Assembly (NCBI GenBank): GCA_018814305.1
Contig: JAHJAA010000021.1
Location: 1 to 64,000 of the forward strand
Reading direction: 5' to 3'
From: Pseudomonadota bacterium
GTDB taxonomy: Bacteria; Desulfobacterota; Desulfobulbia; Desulfobulbales; JAGXFP01
Length of the DNA: 64,000 bases
Positions 19,013-36,074 of this stretch are shown here, one piece after another. A program made the translations under genes and the position numbers. How positions within the stretch are numbered: position 1 is the first letter of the stretch; every line of letters begins with the position of its first letter. The notes beneath the pieces were generated by a model, which was given only the letters and a program-made list of their open reading frames with translations, ran no database searches and was not told where the DNA came from.

Positions 19013-20185
19013 ATGAGTCAGAATATTTTTACCATACAGCAACCTACCAGATTGGTCTTTGGTTCTGGAACCATCAAGAGTCTGGGCGATCTGGTTCATG
19101 AGACCGGCGGTTCCAAAGTCTTTTTAGTGGTAGATCCTGGGCTAAAAGGCGCAGGGCTGCTTGACCGAATTGTTGCTCCCCTGGAGCAGGGGGGCATCCC
19201 CTATGTGATATACGATAAGGTGGATCCGGAGCCTGGACTTCGGTTGGCCGATCAGGCTAAGAAAGTTGCCGCCAAAGAAAAGTGTGATTGTGTGGTCGGA
19301 GTGGGCGGTGGCTCTGCGATGGACGTGGCTAAGGCGGTCAGTATATTATTGACTAACGGCGGCAAGGCCGAGGATTATTTGGGCCTCGGGAAAATAAAAA
19401 AACCTGGGGTGCCCAAGATTATGGTTCCGACCACCGCAGGAACCGGGGCCGAGGTGAGTTTTACTGCAGTTTTCATCAATGAAAAAACCGGTTCAAAAGG
19501 GGGGATGAATGGAGATCCGCTCTATCCCGAGGCGGCCTTGCTCGACCCGGAGCTGACCGTGTCCATGCCACCCCATGTTACGGCAATGACCGGGATTGAT
19601 GCCTTGACCCATGCCTTGGAGTCCTTCGTTTCCATTCAGGCCAATCCGATCTCGCAGATGTACGGGCTGGAAGCCATGGAGATCATTTTTCATGCCCTGC
19701 CCAAGGCGTATGCCAACGGTAAGAATCTTGAGGCCAGAACGGAGATGCTGCTGGGGAGCCTTTTGGCCGGCAAGGCCTTGGCTATTGCCGGTGTCGGTTT
19801 GGTTCACGCCATGGCCTATCCAATGGGGGGGATGTTCGGGGTTCCCCATGGCCTGGCCAATGCCGTTCTTTTGCCCTATGTGGTGGATTATAATCTGATG
19901 GGGTGTCCCGAGAAATTTGCCGTGATAGCCGAGGTGATGGGCTACAATACCTCAGAATTGACGGTCCGTGAGGCGGCGGCGATGGTGGTGGAAGGGATCG
20001 TGAATCTTAATCATGATGTGGGGATTCCTTCATCTCTGGAGGAACTGGGTATACCGGCCGACCGTTTTGAGGAAATGGCTGAAGTTGCCCTCACCGTTAC
20101 CAGGCCGGTGGAAAACAATCCCCGATGCCCGACCAAGGATGAGGTGGTTCAGATCTACCAAAATGCCCTCCTTGGCTGGGAATAA
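19013..20185 (+). CDS. kdnB: Iron-containing alcohol dehydrogenase, probable Kdo 8-oxidase KdnB
   Basis: Fe-type alcohol dehydrogenase fold, 390 aa: nucleotide-binding GVGGGSAMDVAKA near residue 98, and metal-site segments TGIDALTHALE, GLVHAMAYPMGG and FGVPHGLANA supplying the Asp and His ligands. Alone it would be a generic Fe-ADH. The next gene is a strong KdnA match and kdsB lies 5 kb away, so the likely reaction is oxidation of the C8 hydroxyl of Kdo to an aldehyde. Start 19013 has AAAGGA upstream; the longer frame from 18845 lacks family similarity in its first 56 codons. One of three structured repeats begins right after the stop. Confidence 0.8.
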   Translation: MSQNIFTIQQPTRLVFGSGTIKSLGDLVHETGGSKVFLVVDPGLKGAGLLDRIVAPLEQGGIPYVIYDKVDPEPGLRLADQAKKVAAKEKCDCVVGVGGGSAMDVAKAVSILLTNGGKAEDYLGLGKIKKPGVPKIMVPTTAGTGAEVSFTAVFINEKTGSKGGMNGDPLYPEAALLDPELTVSMPPHVTAMTGIDALTHALESFVSIQANPISQMYGLEAMEIIFHALPKAYANGKNLEARTEMLLGSLLAGKALAIAGVGLVHAMAYPMGGMFGVPHGLANAVLLPYVVDYNLMGCPEKFAVIAEVMGYNTSELTVREAAAMVVEGIVNLNHDVGIPSSLEELGIPADRFEEMAEVALTVTRPVENNPRCPTKDEVVQIYQNALLGWE

Positions 20186-20285
20186 ACGTCCAGTAGCACC
20201 CCATCTGCACGCGATCAGTCCGGTTCGCATAGTGGGGCTATAGCTCACCGGCCTGCTTGCGCACATCTGGGGCACTGCTGGACGT
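20186..20285. repeat. Structured hairpin repeat, copy A
   Basis: 100-nt imperfect inverted repeat starting directly after the kdnB stop. The outer arm ACGTCCAG (20186-20193) pairs with 20278-20285. It shares with copies at 45002 and 62268 the 5' internal-loop word CATCTGC, the 3' word GCACATCTGGGGCAC, and an apex ATAG-TGGGG-CTAT followed by one unpaired A. The stem sequences differ between copies and this copy is the most decayed. No transposase is nearby. Confidence 0.7.
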
Positions 20286-20314
20286 CTATTCGTGTAATGG
20301 GGCTTGTCGAGTAA

Positions 20315-20355
20315 AAAAAGAAAAAGGAGCTGGATAATTGAAGCAGCTCTTTTTT
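20315..20355. terminator. Terminator-like hairpin upstream of kdnA
   Basis: GAGCTG (20327-20332) pairs with CAGCTC (20344-20349) around an 11-nt loop. The A-rich 5' flank pairs with a six-T tract on the right, giving a terminator shape on both strands. It lies between kdnB and kdnA, 36 nt before the kdnA start, so it may end the kdnB transcript or act as an attenuator for kdnA. Confidence 0.6.
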
Positions 20356-20390
20356 AGAGAAAAATACATTTATCATAGGAAGAAAAACGT

Positions 20391-21593
20391 ATGCCAGGTT
20401 TTGAAGTGTTCGGTGAGGAAGAGAAAAAGGAGATCCTGGAAGTTCTTGAGACCGGGGTGCTGTTTCGTTATGAATTTCCTGAGCAGCGTCGGGGGGTCTA
20501 TAAGGTCCGGTCGTTTGAGGAGAATTTTGCCCGATATTGCGGGGTGGGTTATGCCCAGGCGGTAACTTCGGGAACCGCGGCCCTCAAGGTGGCTCTGGCT
20601 GCCCTTGGAGTGGGGCCGGGTGATGAGGTTATTACCCAGAGCTTTACTTTTGTGGCCACCTGGGAGGCGATTTTTGATGTGGGAGCGGTACCGGTGTTTG
20701 TTGAGGTTGATGAGACCTTGAATATGGATCCCAAGGACCTTGAGAAAAAGATCACCGAGAAGACCAAGGCAATTATTCCGGTGCACATGATGGGTGGACC
20801 TGCTCGGATTGAGGAGATTGTAGCCATCGCTACCCGATATGGGATTCCGGTGGTGGAGGATACCGCCCAGGCCGCAGGGGCAAAATTACATGGTAAGGCC
20901 TTGGGCTCTTTCGGGACTTGCGGGACCTTCTCCTTTGACGCAGTCAAGACCATGACCACCGGCGAAGGCGGGATGGTTATCACCAATGATGAGGGACTGT
21001 GGCGAACCATGAGTGAATATCAAGACCATGGTCATGACCATGTCCAAAATCCAGGGGGACGGGGCGGCGAAGGGCGGCGGTTCATTGGTTTCAATTATCG
21101 GATGATGGAACTCCAGGGGGCCATCGGTTTGGCTCAGTTGGCCAAACTGGATGGGATGATTGCCGCCCAGAAAAGGCATAAGTCCCGATTGAAGGAGGCT
21201 GCTGCCAAAATTCCTGGAGTGACCTTCCGAAATGTCCTTGATGAAGCAGGTGAAAATGCTACTTTTTTTGCGTTTTTTCTGCCCGACGGCGACCGGGCTC
21301 AAGCCGTGAATCAGGTCCTCCGTGCGGAGGGCTGCGGCGCCATAGCCTTTGCCGAGAATACCTGGCACTATTACCCGAAATGGGAACATCTGCTTGGGGG
21401 GGCAACCTTGGCCAAGTCCGGCTGGCCCTTTGTCAGTCATAATAAGCAGCGGGTGATTTATGATCCCAAGGTTTTACCCGCTTCCGCCGCCATCATGGAA
21501 CGGCTATTGGTTTTTCAGGTACCGATCACCTTGAGTGAGGAGCGGCTCGGGCAGATCTGTGCTGCCCTGGCCAAGGCTGCGGTGAAGGCCTGA
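20391..21593 (+). CDS. kdnA: PLP aminotransferase, 8-amino-3,8-dideoxyoctulosonate transaminase KdnA
   Basis: DegT/DnrJ/EryC1-fold sugar aminotransferase of 400 aa. The start MPGFEVFGEEEKKE, the SGTAALKVALAALG cofactor segment, FSFDAVKTMTTGEGG with the cofactor lysine at residue 186, and EYQDHGHDHV resemble Shewanella KdnA as I remember it rather than general DegT enzymes. KdnA aminates the 8-aldehyde of Kdo made by KdnB, giving 8-amino-Kdo, which is then activated by KdsB. The immediate kdnB neighbour strengthens the call. Confidence 0.85.
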   Translation: MPGFEVFGEEEKKEILEVLETGVLFRYEFPEQRRGVYKVRSFEENFARYCGVGYAQAVTSGTAALKVALAALGVGPGDEVITQSFTFVATWEAIFDVGAVPVFVEVDETLNMDPKDLEKKITEKTKAIIPVHMMGGPARIEEIVAIATRYGIPVVEDTAQAAGAKLHGKALGSFGTCGTFSFDAVKTMTTGEGGMVITNDEGLWRTMSEYQDHGHDHVQNPGGRGGEGRRFIGFNYRMMELQGAIGLAQLAKLDGMIAAQKRHKSRLKEAAAKIPGVTFRNVLDEAGENATFFAFFLPDGDRAQAVNQVLRAEGCGAIAFAENTWHYYPKWEHLLGGATLAKSGWPFVSHNKQRVIYDPKVLPASAAIMERLLVFQVPITLSEERLGQICAALAKAAVKA

Positions 21594-21603
21594 AAATATC
21601 GGG

Positions 21604-24273
21604 TTAACCTTTGTCAAACATGGTTTTTTCTTCAATATAGGTGGCCTGGAGGGTTGCCTCGGTTGGGTCGTCAGAATCTGAAGTAGGCTGTGCATCTAGG
21701 TCGGATGTCGGGAGTCCCTGCCAAAGTTCCAGGTACATGTGCCGTTTGACCACGGTAAAAAGGACTGTGAGTAAATGGTCGGCGGAGAGCTTGGCCGGAG
21801 TTGACGTGATCATCTGTTTTGACAGGTTCAGTTCTTCGATTTGTCGTTTTAGATTATCAAGCCTCTGCAGAAGCCGGATGGCTTTGGGGCGATGCTGGAT
21901 CAGAACTTTTTGATCCGGGGTGATGTTTTCCCATTTTTGGGAAAGATTCCGAATCTCCCGAGAGCTGGCCAAAAGCAGGATCCGGCGGCTTTTATCTGTG
22001 GCATAAACCGTTTGAGCGGAGATGCATTCCTTCATTGTCTCGCTCAACCCTTCCATGGTCTCGGTCAGGTTCCTGGAAAGCATCTCCTGGGCCTGAGCCG
22101 GGACTATAATCTGCAACGAGCTCAACTCTTGCTGTTTCTCAGTCATGGTCTCTTGAAATTCGTTTACTGCAGTCTCCCAGAAGATCCTACTGGCCTCAAT
22201 GGCTATCTCCGATAGCTCAACGGGGTTATTGAGGCAGGCCAAAATCTTTCGGACCAGGCCGGGGACGATCCGTGCGGTCTTTTCAAAAAGAAAACCATTA
22301 CTGACCACCTTGAACATGACCCCCACCATGCCATACCAGTCCTGGAGATGGAGGGTCAACGGCAGATTGCCGTACATGGAGGTTAACACCTGGTTGGGGA
22401 TGAACTGGGCGGGGGTGGCATATTGCGGAGTTCCGCCCAGTTGTGGCTGGGCAATACTCTTTTGATGGGTACGGCCGTAGACCACCGCCGTCTCAATATC
22501 GATCAGGCCGATTCGGTACTCTTCCGGTTTGGCCAGGAATGACGGGTAATGATCCCGATTGCCAGCCACCAGCAGATTATCTGGTTTAAGATCCCGTAGG
22601 GCAACTCCCCGACTTCCAACATGGGCCAGCAGGACGAGCAGATTGGTTAGAATCCCTTCCATGGGCGCCTTACTCCTAAATAACTTTTTAGGAATGACTG
22701 ATTCGCTAACTGCCTGGTGGTAGGCTTCGATGATTTTAGAGTGTTGTTTGCAATAGGTGGCGGCAGTTCGTTTTAATCGCATCATCGTGTGGGGGGGGAG
22801 ATTCTTGACTGGCGGGGGGGTGGCCTCCTTGATAAGATGGCTGATATACCATTGCTTGATTTTATAGGGGGTAATTGATGCCCCCCCCTGGCCCTCGAGA
22901 ACGATTTTCCCTATCTGGTTTTCAAATCCGCGATGAAGTTCCTGGACCGCATTCAGAATTTTCTGGCCTCTCTTGCTATTGCCTAATCCCGGCAGGGAAA
23001 TGCTCCAGTTGGATTCGGCATGGCGGTTCATCTCTTCAGTTACGAGCATTGACGAATCATGAAGGTTCTTGATGACGTCTTGGAGAAAATAGTATTTCGA
23101 CATGTCCATGAAATAGGCAAAGGTATCTCCAACCTGAAGAAAGTGGGGCAAGGTGGGTTCTCTCAGGAGGGCCTTGGTGGCAATCTCTTCCGATCGATTC
23201 AGGGAATTGTCGATGTAATGGAGAATGACCGAGATGGTTGGAATAATACATTCCCGGAGATCAAGTTGTTTGGCGATGTGTGCTTCTTGTTTCAGGCTGT
23301 TGATATACTCCTCTATGTCAGTGATCGGGATGGGAGGGACCTTAACCACGATATAATCATCATAGATGACATAGAAACATTTGCTCCTGCTGCCTGAATC
23401 GGCCCCCAGGCGACCGATGGTCATCCGTCTTGATTTCCAGCGGGCATTCAAATGAACCTGGAGATCGAAAAGATATTTGGCTTCACCCCGATGGTGTTCA
23501 ACCAGGGCACAGCGGCCGGGAGATTCAGGGGGAGCCCCAAGGTGGTGCTTGACAATATCCAGAAAAAGAGTGGCGATCCTTTCAATATATTTATAGTCCG
23601 GGTCTGTCGCGCTCAATGATTCGTACGCTTCCGAGGAGTCTGATGAAGACGTCAGGGTATCTTCGGCGGAGGGTGGAGCGGTCGTGGTCAGACTTGAGAT
23701 GAGCATGACACAGAGTCCCAGGTCGGCCAGGAGAAAGACCAGAGCAGGGAACCAGAGTTGATCGGTGTGAAGATACTCATCAAAAACGGATGAGATGATA
23801 ACGGCGACAAAGGGTAAAGGGAGGAGAGTTGCCAGGGCCTTGAATTGACTGACCTTTCGAGCTACCCCTTTGTTGGACTGCCGGGAAAGATTTTGGCTGC
23901 CTCCGAATTTTTTCAGAGATTTGGTAAGCCAAAGTTTCAGTCCGTTGGAAAGCAGGTTGATCAAGAGAAGAAAGAACAGGATCTGGCTGACTAGGGAGAG
24001 GCCATTGCGAAGGTTGCTTGCGATAGCGCCATTGTTCTGGTTGAAGACGATTTGACCCTGGGCGAGTGCGATGCCCCTTGTCAGGATGAGCATGCGGAGA
24101 AGCAGGGGGACTCGCAGGAGGCTTTTTTTTAGCTCCGGGGCCTGAAGAACGGATTTCGATTGATTAATAACTTTTTTGGTATACCCGGAGACGAAATGTC
24201 CGATGACAATGCTTGCAGTTATGACTCCGGGAAAGATCAGAAACTCCTCGAGGGAATTAGCATAGGGAGCCAT
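21604..24273 (-). CDS. Large membrane protein with degenerate Ser/Thr kinase-like domain
   Basis: About 889 aa. Several hydrophobic segments lie in the first 200 residues (near 12-32, 60-75, 93-113 and 150-195), followed by a long cytoplasmic part. Near residues 575-680 are kinase-like motifs: ALRDLKPDNLLV for the catalytic loop, LIDIETAV in the DFG position, GGTPQYATPAQF as an activation segment, and DWYGMVGVMF like helix F. DFG is changed to DIE but its Asp is kept. The last 200 residues are helical, probably coiled coil. I do not recognise a named family. ATG 24273 follows a GTG at 24276. Confidence 0.65.
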   Translation of the reverse strand: MAPYANSLEEFLIFPGVITASIVIGHFVSGYTKKVINQSKSVLQAPELKKSLLRVPLLLRMLILTRGIALAQGQIVFNQNNGAIASNLRNGLSLVSQILFFLLLINLLSNGLKLWLTKSLKKFGGSQNLSRQSNKGVARKVSQFKALATLLPLPFVAVIISSVFDEYLHTDQLWFPALVFLLADLGLCVMLISSLTTTAPPSAEDTLTSSSDSSEAYESLSATDPDYKYIERIATLFLDIVKHHLGAPPESPGRCALVEHHRGEAKYLFDLQVHLNARWKSRRMTIGRLGADSGSRSKCFYVIYDDYIVVKVPPIPITDIEEYINSLKQEAHIAKQLDLRECIIPTISVILHYIDNSLNRSEEIATKALLREPTLPHFLQVGDTFAYFMDMSKYYFLQDVIKNLHDSSMLVTEEMNRHAESNWSISLPGLGNSKRGQKILNAVQELHRGFENQIGKIVLEGQGGASITPYKIKQWYISHLIKEATPPPVKNLPPHTMMRLKRTAATYCKQHSKIIEAYHQAVSESVIPKKLFRSKAPMEGILTNLLVLLAHVGSRGVALRDLKPDNLLVAGNRDHYPSFLAKPEEYRIGLIDIETAVVYGRTHQKSIAQPQLGGTPQYATPAQFIPNQVLTSMYGNLPLTLHLQDWYGMVGVMFKVVSNGFLFEKTARIVPGLVRKILACLNNPVELSEIAIEASRIFWETAVNEFQETMTEKQQELSSLQIIVPAQAQEMLSRNLTETMEGLSETMKECISAQTVYATDKSRRILLLASSREIRNLSQKWENITPDQKVLIQHRPKAIRLLQRLDNLKRQIEELNLSKQMITSTPAKLSADHLLTVLFTVVKRHMYLELWQGLPTSDLDAQPTSDSDDPTEATLQATYIEEKTMFDKG

Positions 24274-24424
24274 CACAGACCGCCTTCGGATTGGGTGGAA
24301 ATATCCATACTGTTTATTGGAGGTGTATTCATGGTGAGATGCTTTCCTTTATAAGGGGATTCAACCAAGGTACTCTTTCATACCATATCATCTGAAAGCA
24401 GTGAACCCCTGGAGTGGAAAAATC

Positions 24425-25213
24425 TTACCGAACCAGGTATACGTCAAAGCGGTGGTTCCCGGTTTTTCTTGAAAAGTCGGGGGGACGCGAATCGATGGGG
24501 GGGGCTTGGGCCGGTCGTTTGACGACCACCCGTTGGCAGGCTCCGGCCAAGGCCATGGCCAGGAGGAGGTGGGCATCGTGGTCATCACCGACGATGGCGC
24601 GTAAATAGAGCATCTCTTTTTTGACCTTGGCGGTTTTGGTTCGGTGGGGATACATGGGATCTAAGTAAATAACCTCGGCTGGCCGGGTGTGGCTTTCTTC
24701 CCTCAGTATGTTAAGACTGTCGCAAGGTAATAACTCCATGTGGGCAATGATTGGTTTGAGTCTCGAGTCTTTTGCCGCACGTTTCAGTCCATCTGAGAGG
24801 AGGGCTGCGATGATTGGATTTCTCTCAAACAGCCGGACGTGGATGCCCTGGGCGGCCATGAGAAAGGCATCGCGGCCCAGGCCCGCGGTGGCATCAATGA
24901 CCTCCTGTGGCAGGCCGGACTTGGTGCCCACCGCGCGGATCAAAGGTTCTCGGCGACCGCCGCCGTGTTGACGGCGGTAAAATAAATTATCACTGGCAAA
25001 GTCCACAAAAACCGGTCCCGGCCCCTCAATAGTCGTGTCTCTGAGTTCCAAGCGGTCCCGGGTGACGGTCAGAAGGTGAGGGAAATCACGGCACGTGCTG
25101 TCAACCAGTGGCATCTGGAGATGATCCGATAATGTCTTTGCCGTCGTTTGCTCGGAGGCGGTTGCGGCGGCGATGGCAACACCGGGGGAGAGGGTTGGCA
25201 GAATTTTATTCAT
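24425..25213 (-). CDS. rsmJ: RsmJ, 16S rRNA (guanine-1516-N2)-methyltransferase
   Basis: SAM-dependent rRNA methyltransferase. VDFASDNLFYRRQHGGGR near residue 70, DATAGLGRDAFLMA as motif I and YLDPMYPHR as the catalytic DPMxP motif are the RsmJ signature. In other bacteria it methylates G1516 of 16S rRNA. The start is uncertain: ATG 25213 has no strong ribosome site, and a TTG at 25246 would add 11 residues. It is transcribed away from the structured gene-free region at 25.25-25.6 kb. Confidence 0.88.
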   Translation of the reverse strand: MNKILPTLSPGVAIAAATASEQTTAKTLSDHLQMPLVDSTCRDFPHLLTVTRDRLELRDTTIEGPGPVFVDFASDNLFYRRQHGGGRREPLIRAVGTKSGLPQEVIDATAGLGRDAFLMAAQGIHVRLFERNPIIAALLSDGLKRAAKDSRLKPIIAHMELLPCDSLNILREESHTRPAEVIYLDPMYPHRTKTAKVKKEMLYLRAIVGDDHDAHLLLAMALAGACQRVVVKRPAQAPPIDSRPPDFSRKTGNHRFDVYLVR

Positions 25214-25261
25214 CGACAATTGACGGTTGGGCTTATTATTTACCAATCACGAGTTAACCCT

Positions 25262-25560
25262 CCAGAGGGAAAGGGGACTCCGGGGTCTCTTTAATCTGAA
25301 AAGGTCGCTTGATGCCTGGGGCAACGTCCGCCGAACCGGGATTATGCCCTAAGGACAATCCGATGGGCCCAGGCAATACTTACTGCTGGACAGTGAAGAA
25401 CGAGTAGGGTAAACCGTTTTGCCAAGGCTCTCGTGGTTTCCATCCGGGAACGTTCTGCTCGTGAAGCTCTGCGTCAAACCGCAGAGGTGCTTGTGCGGCG
25501 TATTCATGTACGTCTCCACGCAACTGATTGTTTCCCTTGACCTAGTCAAAAAATACTTGT
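25262..25560. other. Gene-free interval with hairpins, candidate structured RNA
   Basis: About 300 nt between divergent rsmJ and kdsB with no coding frame that looks real. TGCCTGGG (25313-25320) pairs with CCCAGGCA (25368-25375), and inside it GTCC/GGAC and GGG/CCC can stack. Further right, CTCTGCG and CGCAGAG form a tight 7-bp hairpin around 25470-25490, and GAACG/CGTTC can close a longer arm. I could not match it to 6S, RNase P, tmRNA or any riboswitch consensus I know. It could be a small RNA on either strand or a leader. Confidence 0.4.
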
Positions 25561-25613
25561 TTCAGATGGAAACTATCGTAACATTATTTCATTAAAATTG
25601 ATCTGGGAAAACC

Positions 25614-26390
25614 ATGGACCCGACCCATAAACAAGAACCGAAGGTGGTGGCGATTATTCCTGCCCGGTACCATTCCAATCGTTTTGAAGGAAAACCCCTG
25701 GCCAAGATCATGGGGAAGCCGATGATCCAGCGGGTCTATGAGCGGGCCTTGGAGGTTGATCTTTTGGCCATGGTAGTGGTAGCCACCGATGATGAGCGGA
25801 TTGCAGAGTGCGTTACCGGCTTTGGCGGGAGGGTCGTGATGACCAGCCCGGCCCATGTCTCCGGCACCGATCGTCTGGCCGAGGCGGCGACCTTGCTGGT
25901 AATCAACGAACAGGATGTGGTGGTCAATATCCAGGGGGACCAGCCGTTGTTTGAAAAAGAGGTGGTCGATCAGGTTGCCCGTCCCCTGCTGGACGATCCT
26001 TCTCTACCCATGGCCACCTTGATTTATAAGATAATCCGCAAGGAAGAGATCTACGATCCGAACCATGTCAAAACTGTTTTTGATCGTAACGGGATGGCGC
26101 TCTACTTTTCCCGGTCAGCCATTCCCTTTCAACGTAATCCCGAAGAACCTCCGGCCCCGACCTATTATAAACATCTGGGATTTTACGCCTACCGGAAGGG
26201 ATTTCTGCACACCTTTGTCGGGTTGCCTGAGGGAGAATGGGAGCGTTTTGAGAAACTTGAACAGCTCAGGGTTTTGGAATATGGTTATCGAATTAAGGTA
26301 GTGTTGACCGAGCATGACTCAGTGGAAGTCGACACACCTCGCGATCTTTTGCGGGTTGAGGAGATCTGCCGGAAACGTGGTGTTGTTTGA
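25614..26390 (+). CDS. kdsB: KdsB, CMP-Kdo (or CMP-8-amino-Kdo) synthetase
   Basis: Cytidylyltransferase that activates the octulosonate sugar for lipopolysaccharide. IIPARYHSNRFEGKPLA is the N-terminal CTP-binding motif; NIQGDQPLF and YYKHLGFYAYRKGFL are family hallmarks. At 258 aa it is full length. Because kdnB and kdnA homologues lie 4-6 kb upstream, the true substrate may be 8-amino-3,8-dideoxy-Kdo, as shown for the Shewanella enzyme. It is followed 54 nt later by mdh. Confidence 0.93.
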   Translation: MDPTHKQEPKVVAIIPARYHSNRFEGKPLAKIMGKPMIQRVYERALEVDLLAMVVVATDDERIAECVTGFGGRVVMTSPAHVSGTDRLAEAATLLVINEQDVVVNIQGDQPLFEKEVVDQVARPLLDDPSLPMATLIYKIIRKEEIYDPNHVKTVFDRNGMALYFSRSAIPFQRNPEEPPAPTYYKHLGFYAYRKGFLHTFVGLPEGEWERFEKLEQLRVLEYGYRIKVVLTEHDSVEVDTPRDLLRVEEICRKRGVV

Positions 26391-27391: not shown

Positions 27392-29668
27392 ATGGTCACT
27401 GAAAAAACCAGCGGCAATTTTACCGATCTCCTGAGCCGGGTCAGGGATGAACGGTTTGGGCCCTTTGATCTTCTGCCCCGTGGCGAGTTGGTGGAGAAGG
27501 TGATCGAGCTTGCCCTTTCCGGATCGCCGGTGGGGGCAGGCGAAGTGGCCACGGGATTAATGCGTCTCACCCGGGAGTTGCAGGGGATTGATACCTCGAA
27601 TCTGAGGGTGGTGGTCTTTGGCGGCGGCAGCGGTTTGTCGAATCTGGTTGGGGGCGACAGCCGTCGGTCGACCTGGCCTGAAGCCCCCTTTCATGGTTTA
27701 AAGGAACTGTTCCCCAAGACTCGATCAGTGGTCTGTATCACTGACGATGGCGGTTCCACCGGAGAACTGCTTAAGGATCTGGATCTGGTGGCGGTGGGTG
27801 ATCTTAGGCATGTGTTGCTTTCCTCCGTTACTCTGGCTAATCTGCAGTTCCGTTATTCGCTTTCCGAAAAAGGCTGCCGGCGGGTTGCGGGGGTTTTGTA
27901 TAAATTATTTAATTTTCGCTTCGACCATGCTCCGGAAAATCCCAAGACCATCTTGAACGAGGCCGGGATTGATCCGGTTGACGTGCCGGTTGAGATGTGG
28001 TCTGGGATTGAGGGATTGATCCACCGGCTTTTTCATGACCAGAGGCTACGTCCCCTGTTGTCCCGGACCCATTGTCTTGGTAATTTGTTACTGGTAGCGG
28101 CGGTTTCGGTCAATTGCGCGGATGAACAGCCGATTGATGAAGAGCCGGAGGCTCTGCTTGGCGGATTGCGTCTGCTGGCTGGGCTGATCGGGGCCGATGC
28201 TGAGGCGGTGATGCCCTGTACAGTAACTCCGGCCCACCTGAAGATGCTTTATGGTAACGGGGTGTTGGTCAGTGGTGAATTCAAGGCCGGAGGTGCCCGG
28301 CGGGGTTGTCCGGTGGATCGGGTTTTTGTCGATTCCGTAGGTGATCCCCTGGTTCCACCCAATGTTCTGGCCAGTATCCAGGAGGCAGACCTTATCTTGT
28401 TTGCCCCGGGCAGTCTCTATACCAGTATTATTCCTATTCTTCAGCTTCCGACCATCAGCAAGGCTATTCGGGAGAATCGGACAGCCTTGAAGTTCTTGGT
28501 AGCAAACCTTTGGGTCCAGAAGGGTGAAACAGATATCGCGGTCGGCAGCCGGGAACGTCGTTTCCACGTCTCGGATATGATTGCTGCCTACCATCGTAAT
28601 ATCCCCAACGGCACCGATGGACTGTTCAATTACGTTATGGTCCTGGGGTTGCAGGACATTCCCGGAAGTGTTCTGCGGAATTATGCCTTGGAAGATAAGG
28701 TCCCCATCTATCTTGATCGAGATAAGGTGGCTTCCCTGGGATTTGTCCCTATTGAATGTCGGATTTTTTCGGCGGAAGCGTTGTCCAAGCACCAGGTGGT
28801 GCAGCATGATCCCTACGCCATGGCCCTGGCGGTCAGGGCGGTTTGGGCTGGTCGGGATTGCTTGCCTCCCCAGCCCGAGGGGCGCCTCACTGGGAGAACC
28901 GGTTGCGGGGTCATGGTCGGTGCCATCAGGCATAAACCAGGATTACGATATCCAGCAATTCATGCCGCCCTTGAATCCAGGGAGATGGATGGGGCCATCC
29001 GTGAACAGGTGGCTGAGATCCTTTGGCAACACCGGGACATCAGCTTGACTCAGTTGGCCAATGTGGACGGGATCATTTTGATTGAGACCACGGCTTGGAA
29101 GCATTCCCAGGAATGGGATCGGGTCTTTGCCTATTATGATCCAACGGATCGTTTAATCAAGATCCGGCAGGATATTTTCAACCAGAATGGGAAATTTGAA
29201 CTGGCCTTTCTGGTTGGTCTTGGCGAAAGCCTGTTGGGGAACTATGCGGCAGAAAAGCAGATGGCCCCGTTTGATGGTGAACATGGGATGCTGGGCCGAC
29301 TCTATCGGGTCAGGCTGCGGCCCGAAGCGGAGCGGAAATGCTGGTTGACCGGGGAGGAGCTTCACTCCTATCTGGAGTTGGCCAGGATGAATAGGTCGGT
29401 GATGGATGCCAAGTGTTACACCCGGCTGATCAATGGCACTGAAGGATTTACTCCCCCGGGCCTTTTGTTCGGTCTGGTTTACGCCTGGTATCTTGATAAT
29501 CGGTTTGCCGCCCACATTGAATACAAGATGGCCATCCTCCAGATGGAGGTGCCTGATATGATTACCGAGCAGGTCAAGGTTCGGGAGCGGCGGCGGGAGT
29601 TAGTAGATTTTTTCCGCCGGGTGGTTTTCCGGTATGATGCCCCGGAGTTTGAGCCGGATAGAGATTGA
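27392..29668 (+). CDS. Enlarged YvcK/CofD-like protein
   Basis: The central region belongs to the YvcK/CofD-like (2-phospho-L-lactate transferase fold) family: VVVFGGGSGLSNL at residues 73-85, ITDDGGSTGEL at 116-126, GDLRHVLL at 136 and FAPGSLYTSIIP near 340. YvcK proteins bind UDP-sugars and influence gluconeogenesis or cell-wall synthesis. This protein is 758 aa, about twice the usual size, with a 70-residue N-terminal extension and about 300 C-terminal residues I do not recognise. It is 3 nt before prmA, so tightly coupled. Confidence 0.8.
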   Translation: MVTEKTSGNFTDLLSRVRDERFGPFDLLPRGELVEKVIELALSGSPVGAGEVATGLMRLTRELQGIDTSNLRVVVFGGGSGLSNLVGGDSRRSTWPEAPFHGLKELFPKTRSVVCITDDGGSTGELLKDLDLVAVGDLRHVLLSSVTLANLQFRYSLSEKGCRRVAGVLYKLFNFRFDHAPENPKTILNEAGIDPVDVPVEMWSGIEGLIHRLFHDQRLRPLLSRTHCLGNLLLVAAVSVNCADEQPIDEEPEALLGGLRLLAGLIGADAEAVMPCTVTPAHLKMLYGNGVLVSGEFKAGGARRGCPVDRVFVDSVGDPLVPPNVLASIQEADLILFAPGSLYTSIIPILQLPTISKAIRENRTALKFLVANLWVQKGETDIAVGSRERRFHVSDMIAAYHRNIPNGTDGLFNYVMVLGLQDIPGSVLRNYALEDKVPIYLDRDKVASLGFVPIECRIFSAEALSKHQVVQHDPYAMALAVRAVWAGRDCLPPQPEGRLTGRTGCGVMVGAIRHKPGLRYPAIHAALESREMDGAIREQVAEILWQHRDISLTQLANVDGIILIETTAWKHSQEWDRVFAYYDPTDRLIKIRQDIFNQNGKFELAFLVGLGESLLGNYAAEKQMAPFDGEHGMLGRLYRVRLRPEAERKCWLTGEELHSYLELARMNRSVMDAKCYTRLINGTEGFTPPGLLFGLVYAWYLDNRFAAHIEYKMAILQMEVPDMITEQVKVRERRRELVDFFRRVVFRYDAPEFEPDRD

Positions 29669-34022: not shown

Positions 34023-35780
34023 TTACGAAGGCGCTGTCTCTTCTGCTAATTCCGCTAGGTGTTGCTGGGCAAAACCAATGGAGGGGTCGAGGGACAGAGC
34101 CAGGGCGAATGATTTTATTGCCTCTTCATTCTGGCCCAGTTTCCGGTAGTTCACTCCAAGGTTGGCATAGTCAATGGCCGAGGTGGGGGCGAGATAGACC
34201 GCCTTGGAAAAATGGTGAACGGCGGCCTCGTGGTCACCCTTCTTGAAGAAACAAAAACCCAGGAGGTTATGCAAGTCGGGGCGTTCATCGTCCAGGGAGG
34301 TGCCTTTTTGGAGGACGGTCACGGCCTGGTCATACTGCTCGAGATCCTTCAGGCAGCTCCCCATGAAAGAATAGATATACGGGATATCTTCCTGGTCGGG
34401 ATCAAGGGTGAGGGCCTTGTTGAGATGGGTGAGGGCTTCGGCGGGACGACCCTGGTCGGCAAGATGTTGTCCAAGGTAGTATTCAATGAAGTAGGCGTTG
34501 GGCAGGAGGGTCTCCATCCGGGTAAGCTGTTGGAGTTTTTCCTCCGGGTCGGTGATGAGTTCATTGGCCAGTTTGGCGGCAAAGAGCCCGGCGTTGGCGA
34601 CCATGGATCGTTCACGGAAATGAGCGCCTGGGACAATGGTGTAGATGGTGGAAAACTGGAGTTCAGGGTGACGGGTATTGATCACCAGAACTTCTAGATC
34701 CAGTTTTTTTAAAGCAGCCAGGCATCGTTCCACTTCGACCTTCATATTGTTGTCGGTGAGGTCGTCCATTTGATCAAGGTCAATGGTTTTGCCGGGGGCG
34801 GTGATATAGGTGACTTCCTTCATGTCCAGGGGTTTGGGAAGACCACTGGCCACATAGTTGGCCTTGGTGTTGAAGTCGCCGGCCAATTGGGCGACTTCGG
34901 TCAGGGCGCGGATTACTGATTTGGTTGGATTGGGCGTGGTTCCAGCCGTATAGACGATTTCGCTGGTCTCCGGGAAGGTTGAGGGGTCGATAGCCAGAGC
35001 CCCGACTGTGGGGATCCCGGTATCAAGGCTGAAATCGCTCAGGTAGACCTTGATTCCATGGTTGGAGAATTTATCGAGCAGTTCGCGGGCCACGGGGTCG
35101 GTAATCGAGTCGGGATTGATCAGTGGAACCGGGAGTTGCTTGCGGCTGATGATCGAACAGACATGGCGTTCGACAATTTCGCAGACACCCTGGCTGATCG
35201 CCTCTTCGTAGGTATTCCCGGCCGAGGGGCCGTTGAATTCATTGATGGCGTAGAACCAGGAAAAGGGGACCAGGACCTCTTCGTCGGTGGTCAGGTTGGT
35301 CGCCCAGGTCCACCGCATGGGCAGTCCCTCGAGGAGTTTCGCCAGGAGTTCAGCCGAGGTGTTTTCGTCATGGACCGATTGGAGCAGGCGGGATAACGGG
35401 ACCAGGGGGTGACCGGCCTTCTTCATGTTTTCGTAAGTATCGGTTATGAAATTATCCGGGTTTTTCTTGAAGCTGAAAAAACTGAAGCGTTCACCCAATT
35501 CCATGCAGGCACTGGCCCTGGACTGTTCGGGAGTGCTACCCTTGCCCATCTGCTTTTTGTTGCCGATGGTTTCGATGGCGTCCTTGCCGCAGACGCTGAA
35601 GTAAACCGGGATGTCTAAGCGTCCGGTGTCGATTCGGCGGATCTCTTTGAGGATATCCAAGTTGACTGTTTTTAATCGGTCCTGGAACCGTTTGACCGTG
35701 TCTTCCGGGGTCAGGGCCTTGTCCTGATCAAAGGTGTAGGTTTTCAGGCAGTCTTGCAGGATCATTTTTTCAGGTTTCAT
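34023..35780 (-). CDS. YcaO-domain protein with C-terminal TPR
   Basis: 585 aa. The YcaO domain (about residues 30-380) is an ATP-dependent enzyme that activates backbone amides; STPEQSRASACMELGERFS and the EEAISQGVCEIVERH helix carry its ATP/Mg-binding glutamates. The last 190 residues form TPR repeats (ALTHLNKALTLDPDQE, ALALSLDPSIGF). Family members act in thiazoline or thioamide formation or, in Escherichia coli, in S12 beta-methylthiolation. No TfuA, precursor peptide or RimO gene is nearby. ATG 35780 has GAGGA 7 nt upstream. Confidence 0.85.
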   Translation of the reverse strand: MKPEKMILQDCLKTYTFDQDKALTPEDTVKRFQDRLKTVNLDILKEIRRIDTGRLDIPVYFSVCGKDAIETIGNKKQMGKGSTPEQSRASACMELGERFSFFSFKKNPDNFITDTYENMKKAGHPLVPLSRLLQSVHDENTSAELLAKLLEGLPMRWTWATNLTTDEEVLVPFSWFYAINEFNGPSAGNTYEEAISQGVCEIVERHVCSIISRKQLPVPLINPDSITDPVARELLDKFSNHGIKVYLSDFSLDTGIPTVGALAIDPSTFPETSEIVYTAGTTPNPTKSVIRALTEVAQLAGDFNTKANYVASGLPKPLDMKEVTYITAPGKTIDLDQMDDLTDNNMKVEVERCLAALKKLDLEVLVINTRHPELQFSTIYTIVPGAHFRERSMVANAGLFAAKLANELITDPEEKLQQLTRMETLLPNAYFIEYYLGQHLADQGRPAEALTHLNKALTLDPDQEDIPYIYSFMGSCLKDLEQYDQAVTVLQKGTSLDDERPDLHNLLGFCFFKKGDHEAAVHHFSKAVYLAPTSAIDYANLGVNYRKLGQNEEAIKSFALALSLDPSIGFAQQHLAELAEETAPS

Positions 35781-36074
35781 GGGCTTCCTCATTTTCAAAC
35801 GATAAAATATTGATGTGGCCGACCGGTGATTCTGGAGGCCCAAAATCATCGGCACTATAATCCATTTTCCGGGTGAACGCAAAGTCATGGTTCGGGCTGA
35901 CTGGACCGGGTTTCCTTTTCCATAGGGCCTTGCGAGTCGTCATTTGATCACGGAGACGTATTACTACATTGTGGTATTGTTGGCAAGTTCTTCAAGAATA
36001 TCGCTTGCCCATTTACAGGCTGCGGGGTAAGAAAAAATGACTTTGTTCGGGAATAAAATTCAACGGGATATTGG

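Follow-up and report, generated by a model that had tools for sequence, protein, structure and literature searches.

A putative 8-amino-Kdo pathway in Desulfobulbales in which another iron-type dehydrogenase would replace KdnB

The closest described system is that of Shewanella oneidensis, whose pathway to 8-amino-3,8-dideoxy-Kdo (Kdo8N) consists of KdnB, KdnA, and KdsB (Gattis et al. 2013, as cited in PMC5125639). KdnB has been named Kdo 8-oxidase (PMC5125639), and one paper describes Kdo8N as a hallmark of Shewanella (PMC6357163). Our literature search on Desulfobulbaceae with LPS and Kdo, which left most subscription papers outside its scope, returned nothing relevant. Automatic annotation may already label kdnA in such genomes, and we do not claim priority.

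We analysed a stretch of 64,000 nucleotides (hereafter, the window) located on contig C72 of a Desulfobulbales genome of 4.15 Mb in 92 contigs. Its locus resembles the S. oneidensis pathway in that a KdnA-family aminotransferase, an enzyme of the Fe-type alcohol dehydrogenase (Fe-ADH) superfamily, and a KdsB are chromosomally linked, and in that the same chain of reactions is proposed for them. It differs in that the dehydrogenase is not an orthologue of KdnB, the KdnA belongs to a separate subfamily, and the KdsB falls in a clade of its own. The genome, unlike S. oneidensis, also has a second KdsB and two copies of WaaA. From these sequences, we consider it probable that the three genes make CMP-8-amino-3,8-dideoxy-Kdo (CMP-Kdo8N) for the LPS inner core, with another Fe-type dehydrogenase replacing KdnB. 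The bases of this reading are the similarity of KdnA, the non-orthology with KdnB, the linkage of the genes, the mutual exclusion with KdnB, and the link between KdnA and the KdsB of the window (KdsB1). We infer from the enzymes characterised in Shewanella what each protein acts on, and we also infer which cofactor is used and that Kdo8N occurs in LPS.

The locus and its aminotransferase

The features of the locus and its surroundings are the following.

19013–20185, + strand: Fe-type (group III) alcohol dehydrogenase, 390 aa (PF00465 and PF25137)
20391–21593, + strand: KdnA-family DegT/DnrJ aminotransferase (predicted 8-amino-3,8-dideoxy-manno-octulosonate transaminase), 400 aa, best PDB match 5k8b
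21604–24276, − strand: kinase-like ORF, 890 aa, with weak similarity to LanL (24 bits) and PD-T4-6 (19 bits)
24425–25246, − strand: rsmJ-like methyltransferase gene, between the KdnA and KdsB1 genes
25614–26390, + strand: KdsB1, 258 aa, proposed CMP-Kdo8N synthetase, above the cut-off of TIGR00466 (kdsB)
27392–29668, + strand: CofD/YvcK-domain protein, 758 aa (PF01933)
34023–35888, − strand: YcaO domain fused to TPR repeats

An earlier note on this DNA had placed an Fe-dependent dehydrogenase, a KdnA-like aminotransferase, and a KdsB within 19013–26390, and all three ORFs are indeed there, all on the + strand. They do not form a single operon: 205 bp separate the dehydrogenase and KdnA genes, and two genes on the − strand split KdnA from KdsB1. 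The kinase-like ORF has an apparent N-terminal membrane region, as judged by eye, and is absent beside kdnA in the related neighbourhoods that we searched. The CofD/YvcK-domain protein is part of a conserved run 3' of KdsB1 and malate dehydrogenase (MDH) in many Desulfobulbales genomes.

Sequence and structure identify the product of 20391–21593 as a KdnA-family enzyme (predicted EC 2.6.1.109), as the earlier note had proposed. Its first match in the PDB is the Shewanella KdnA (SoKdnA, 5k8b; 325.7 bits), followed by a perosamine synthetase (187.9 bits). The AlphaFold model (mean pLDDT of 87.1) also has 5k8b as its first match with Foldseek and with VIA-align (Z of 50.6, 391 residues aligned, rmsd of 2.5, against a Z of 45.2 for the next structure). 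Around 25–30 columns of the alignment, including R26, Y27, F29, R33, D212, H215–H217, R224, N323, W325, W331, and H333, are nearly constant among KdnAs, SoKdnA included, but seldom or never shared by four DegT paralogues encoded in this genome. Aligned with the Shewanella enzymes, as had been suggested, the aminotransferase shows clear homology (42% identity over 389 residues), whereas the dehydrogenase reaches only ~28% with KdnB.

In the phylogenetic tree, a branch with a support of 99 splits the KdnAs from the four DegT paralogues. The Shewanella-type KdnAs form a clade (support of 99), and the window-type KdnAs are one side of a weakly supported branch (69) in a tree whose outgroup is small and long-branched. 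A genome of the same family (G003) encodes a KdnA 80% identical to that of the window. The clade nearer to SoKdnA is present in the same phylum: other Desulfobacterota (L110–L116 and L218) encode SoKdnA-type KdnAs (56–60% identity to SoKdnA) with a KdnB-type dehydrogenase. These cassettes resemble the window in having KdnA beside a dehydrogenase, in one case (L114) also with KdsB and waaA, and differ from it in the closer KdnA and the KdnB-type partner. The existence of this nearer, KdnB-paired clade, when the KdnA of the window shares only 42% identity with SoKdnA, weighs against our reading of the window, as does the second KdsB of the genome.

The dehydrogenase and its alternation with KdnB

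The first gene of the locus had been labelled kdnB, and where orthology is concerned this label must be abandoned. The structure of KdnB (5k8c) ranks only 33rd among the PDB matches of the window dehydrogenase (112.7 bits); first place goes to an NAD methanol dehydrogenase (286 bits), and a 1,3-propanediol dehydrogenase is also among the best. The enzyme keeps the metal ligands of Fe-ADHs (D/H/H/H) and the GGGS motif, and its metal and NAD motifs are common to these nearest solved relatives (8zrl and 4fr2). All its scores with the NCBIfam equivalog models are well under the cut-offs. Sequence comparison thus places it in a branch of the Fe-ADHs other than that of KdnB (EC 1.1.3.48, cd08184), of which it is not an orthologue. 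The earlier note would have been refuted by a grouping of KdnA and KdnB with other sugar enzymes; the KdnAs stand apart from the DegT paralogues, and the dehydrogenase is nearer to the methanol and propanediol dehydrogenases than to KdnB.

A search for KdnB in the window genome at an E-value of 1e-40 found none, so the window dehydrogenase would be a non-orthologous replacement. We rejected the one other Fe-ADH found by similarity in this genome (C7:96485) as the missing KdnB, with 17% identity to KdnB and 27–29% to the window enzyme. The window dehydrogenase looks like the functional stand-in for KdnB, i.e., the putative Kdo C8-oxidising partner of KdnA. Its genomic partners suggest Kdo rather than short-chain alcohols as substrate, in which it would differ from the methanol and 1,3-propanediol dehydrogenases.

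We searched for these genes in 146 Desulfobulbales genomes, 109 of them of high quality. KdnA is present in 135 of the 146 (104 of the 109) and had no match in a search of plasmid records. Candidatus Electronema and Desulfocapsa are among the names of records that bear KdnA. The window-type dehydrogenase was found in 110 genomes, leaving out two matches at 43%, and true KdnB, searched with the protein of L112 (itself matching 5k8c with 472 bits), in 23. The two never overlap in the 146 genomes. Of the 135 genomes with KdnA, 107 encode the dehydrogenase alone, 23 encode KdnB alone, 5 lack both, and no genome encodes the two together, in counts that ignore shared ancestry. When these states are mapped onto a tree of the KdnAs from 50 of these genomes, they require four changes, at least two of which are forced by supported branches, showing that the exclusivity does not reflect one single split.

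The dehydrogenase gene is at most 3 kb from that of KdnA in 66 of the 107 genomes, and a run of dehydrogenase, KdnA, rsmJ, KdsB1, MDH, and CofD is found repeatedly in different Desulfobulbales families. Outside Desulfobulbales, the genes of the dehydrogenase, KdnA, and KdsB are directly adjacent, in tight operons in several groups (in one case separated by just 13 and 5 bp), and the dehydrogenase lies directly upstream of KdnA in other classes. The order is waaA-FeADH-KdnA-KdsB in L189 and FeADH-KdnA-hldD-KdsB in loci of Syntrophales, where hldD was named by eye from its sequence. WaaA and HldD are enzymes of the LPS inner core; the occurrence of waaA once upstream and the frequent presence of hldD in the operons thus point to this part of LPS. 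The association of the dehydrogenase, KdnA, and KdsB1 is far above chance. In summary, the best reading of these sequences is that nearly all Desulfobulbales have the predicted pathway and that it is common across the phylum.

Could the Fe-ADH be an ordinary alcohol dehydrogenase that neighbours kdnA by chance, with another oxidoreductase supplying 8-oxo-Kdo? Its best relatives in the PDB, the methanol and propanediol dehydrogenases, would fit, as would the 36 genomes in which it is not near KdnA and the two high-quality genomes (G017 and G082) that keep it in the absence of KdnA, which indicate that it may have another role. We nevertheless regard this explanation as very improbable given the complete lack of overlap with KdnB, the repeated switches between the two, and the tight dehydrogenase-KdnA operons of several other groups of the phylum.

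The CMP-Kdo synthetases and WaaA

The identification of the third gene as kdsB was confirmed: KdsB1 scores 249.5 bits with TIGR00466 (cut-off of 155.2) and aligns over its full length with the KdsBs of the PDB. It is not the only one in the genome. KdsB2 is encoded directly after waaA on contig C7 (L002 1420–2217, C7:107186), and a further waaA is found on C55 (C55:22643). KdsB1 and the KdsBs linked elsewhere to the window-type (type-2) KdnA form one clade (support of 95), apart from KdsB2 and from the solved KdsBs.

KdsB1 belongs to the same family as the canonical KdsBs of E. coli, H. influenzae, and Vibrio, from which it differs by a Q in place of the E of the QGDEP motif and by the gain of a D and an E immediately ahead of the second metal aspartate. 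These residues (Q110, D235, and E238) are present in all 61 aligned KdsB1 sequences, some of which are duplicates. At the same positions, KdsB2 and four solved KdsBs have an E, a different or variable residue, and mostly a G, and seven KdsBs from unrelated plasmid records have an E at position 110 and a G or A at 238. A third type of KdsB, with Q, D, and S at positions 110, 235, and 238 (L254, L255, L256, and L265), occurs in one Desulfobulbales genus. It is also found in two genomes lacking KdnA (G107 and G133). This weakens the signature (QGDQ and D..E) as a strict marker of Kdo8N-type KdsBs: these two genomes have the Q and the D, even if with an S at the third position, and the residues of KdsB1 are suggestive only.

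The divergence of these proteins raises the question of the sugar. The cassette could make a different amino keto-deoxy sugar acid, for instance one aminated at another carbon or derived from a relative of Kdo, which KdsB1 would activate for the core or another glycan. Both KdnA and KdsB1 are of diverged subfamilies, KdsB1 departs from the canonical residues at the three positions, and the dehydrogenase comes from another branch than KdnB, all of which speaks for this explanation. Yet the same types of KdnA and KdsB1 are paired, in 23 genomes of the order, with a KdnB close to the Shewanella Kdo 8-oxidase, which makes modification of the same carbon the simplest reading. We therefore consider a different sugar improbable and retain Kdo8N as the likely product.

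The distribution of KdsB1 follows that of KdnA. Both are present in 103 of the 109 high-quality genomes and absent from 5; the remaining one has only KdnA, and none has KdsB1 alone, without correction for ancestry. The high-quality genomes lacking KdnA thus also lack KdsB1, and either have another KdsB or none that we could detect. Nearly all Desulfobulbales genomes have two matches to WaaA, and most have KdsB1 as their single KdsB, including a complete genome (G008). In these, KdsB1 must serve all transfers of Kdo-type sugars, be it both sugars or Kdo8N alone. We rejected an in-frame TGA in the WaaA of several genomes as a selenocysteine codon, since it is an ordinary C-terminal stop in five loci and none was seen in the others upon re-alignment.

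These observations leave some room for KdsB1 serving Desulfobulbales as a general CMP-Kdo synthetase, active on both Kdo and Kdo8N, in which case only KdnA and the dehydrogenase would be special. This concerns the specificity of KdsB and is compatible with our main reading. The genomes with KdsB1 alone and two copies of WaaA point in this direction, as does the acceptance of 8-azido-Kdo by the KdsB of E. coli (PMC12409901), i.e., its tolerance of changes at C8. We think a general role rather unlikely; against it stands the joint absence of KdsB1 and KdnA described above.

The proposed pathway and its implications

The pathway that we propose would start with Kdo made by the KdsA route; KdsA, without which there would be no Kdo precursor, is present. 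The Fe-type dehydrogenase (19013–20185) would oxidise free Kdo at C8 to the 8-aldehyde, presumably with NAD, and KdnA (20391–21593) would convert this aldehyde into Kdo8N by PLP-dependent transamination. KdsB1 (25614–26390) would then use CTP to activate Kdo8N as CMP-Kdo8N, from which a WaaA would transfer the sugar to lipid A. The Kdo8N pathway suggested by the earlier note thus stands in outline, given the homology and specific residues of KdnA, its link with KdsB1, and the exclusivity of KdnB and the Fe-ADH; what does not stand is the orthology of the dehydrogenase with KdnB.

The location of KdsB2 beside waaA in the window genome suggests that plain Kdo may also be activated and used, and the LPS of this bacterium may carry Kdo plus Kdo8N. 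A broader scenario can be put forward tentatively, although we would not call it probable: Desulfobulbales would build their inner core from Kdo8N anaerobically, with repeated exchanges, in both directions, between KdnB and an NAD-dependent Fe-ADH, KdsB1 would be dedicated to Kdo8N, and both WaaA of the genomes with only KdsB1 would use CMP-Kdo8N, with no plain Kdo. Any effect of Kdo8N on the charge of the outer membrane or on sensitivity to antibiotics is speculation.

Although KdnB is named an oxidase, both it and its replacement occur in lineages that are commonly regarded as anaerobic. This suggests another electron acceptor in vivo, probably NAD+. The exchange between KdnB and the other Fe-ADH offers a way to test by what means Kdo oxidation proceeds, and the KdsB variants found here can be used to study how CMP-Kdo synthetases distinguish Kdo and Kdo8N. 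If our reading is true, Kdo8N would belong to the core-gene traits of an entire order of sulfur bacteria and be widespread in its phylum.
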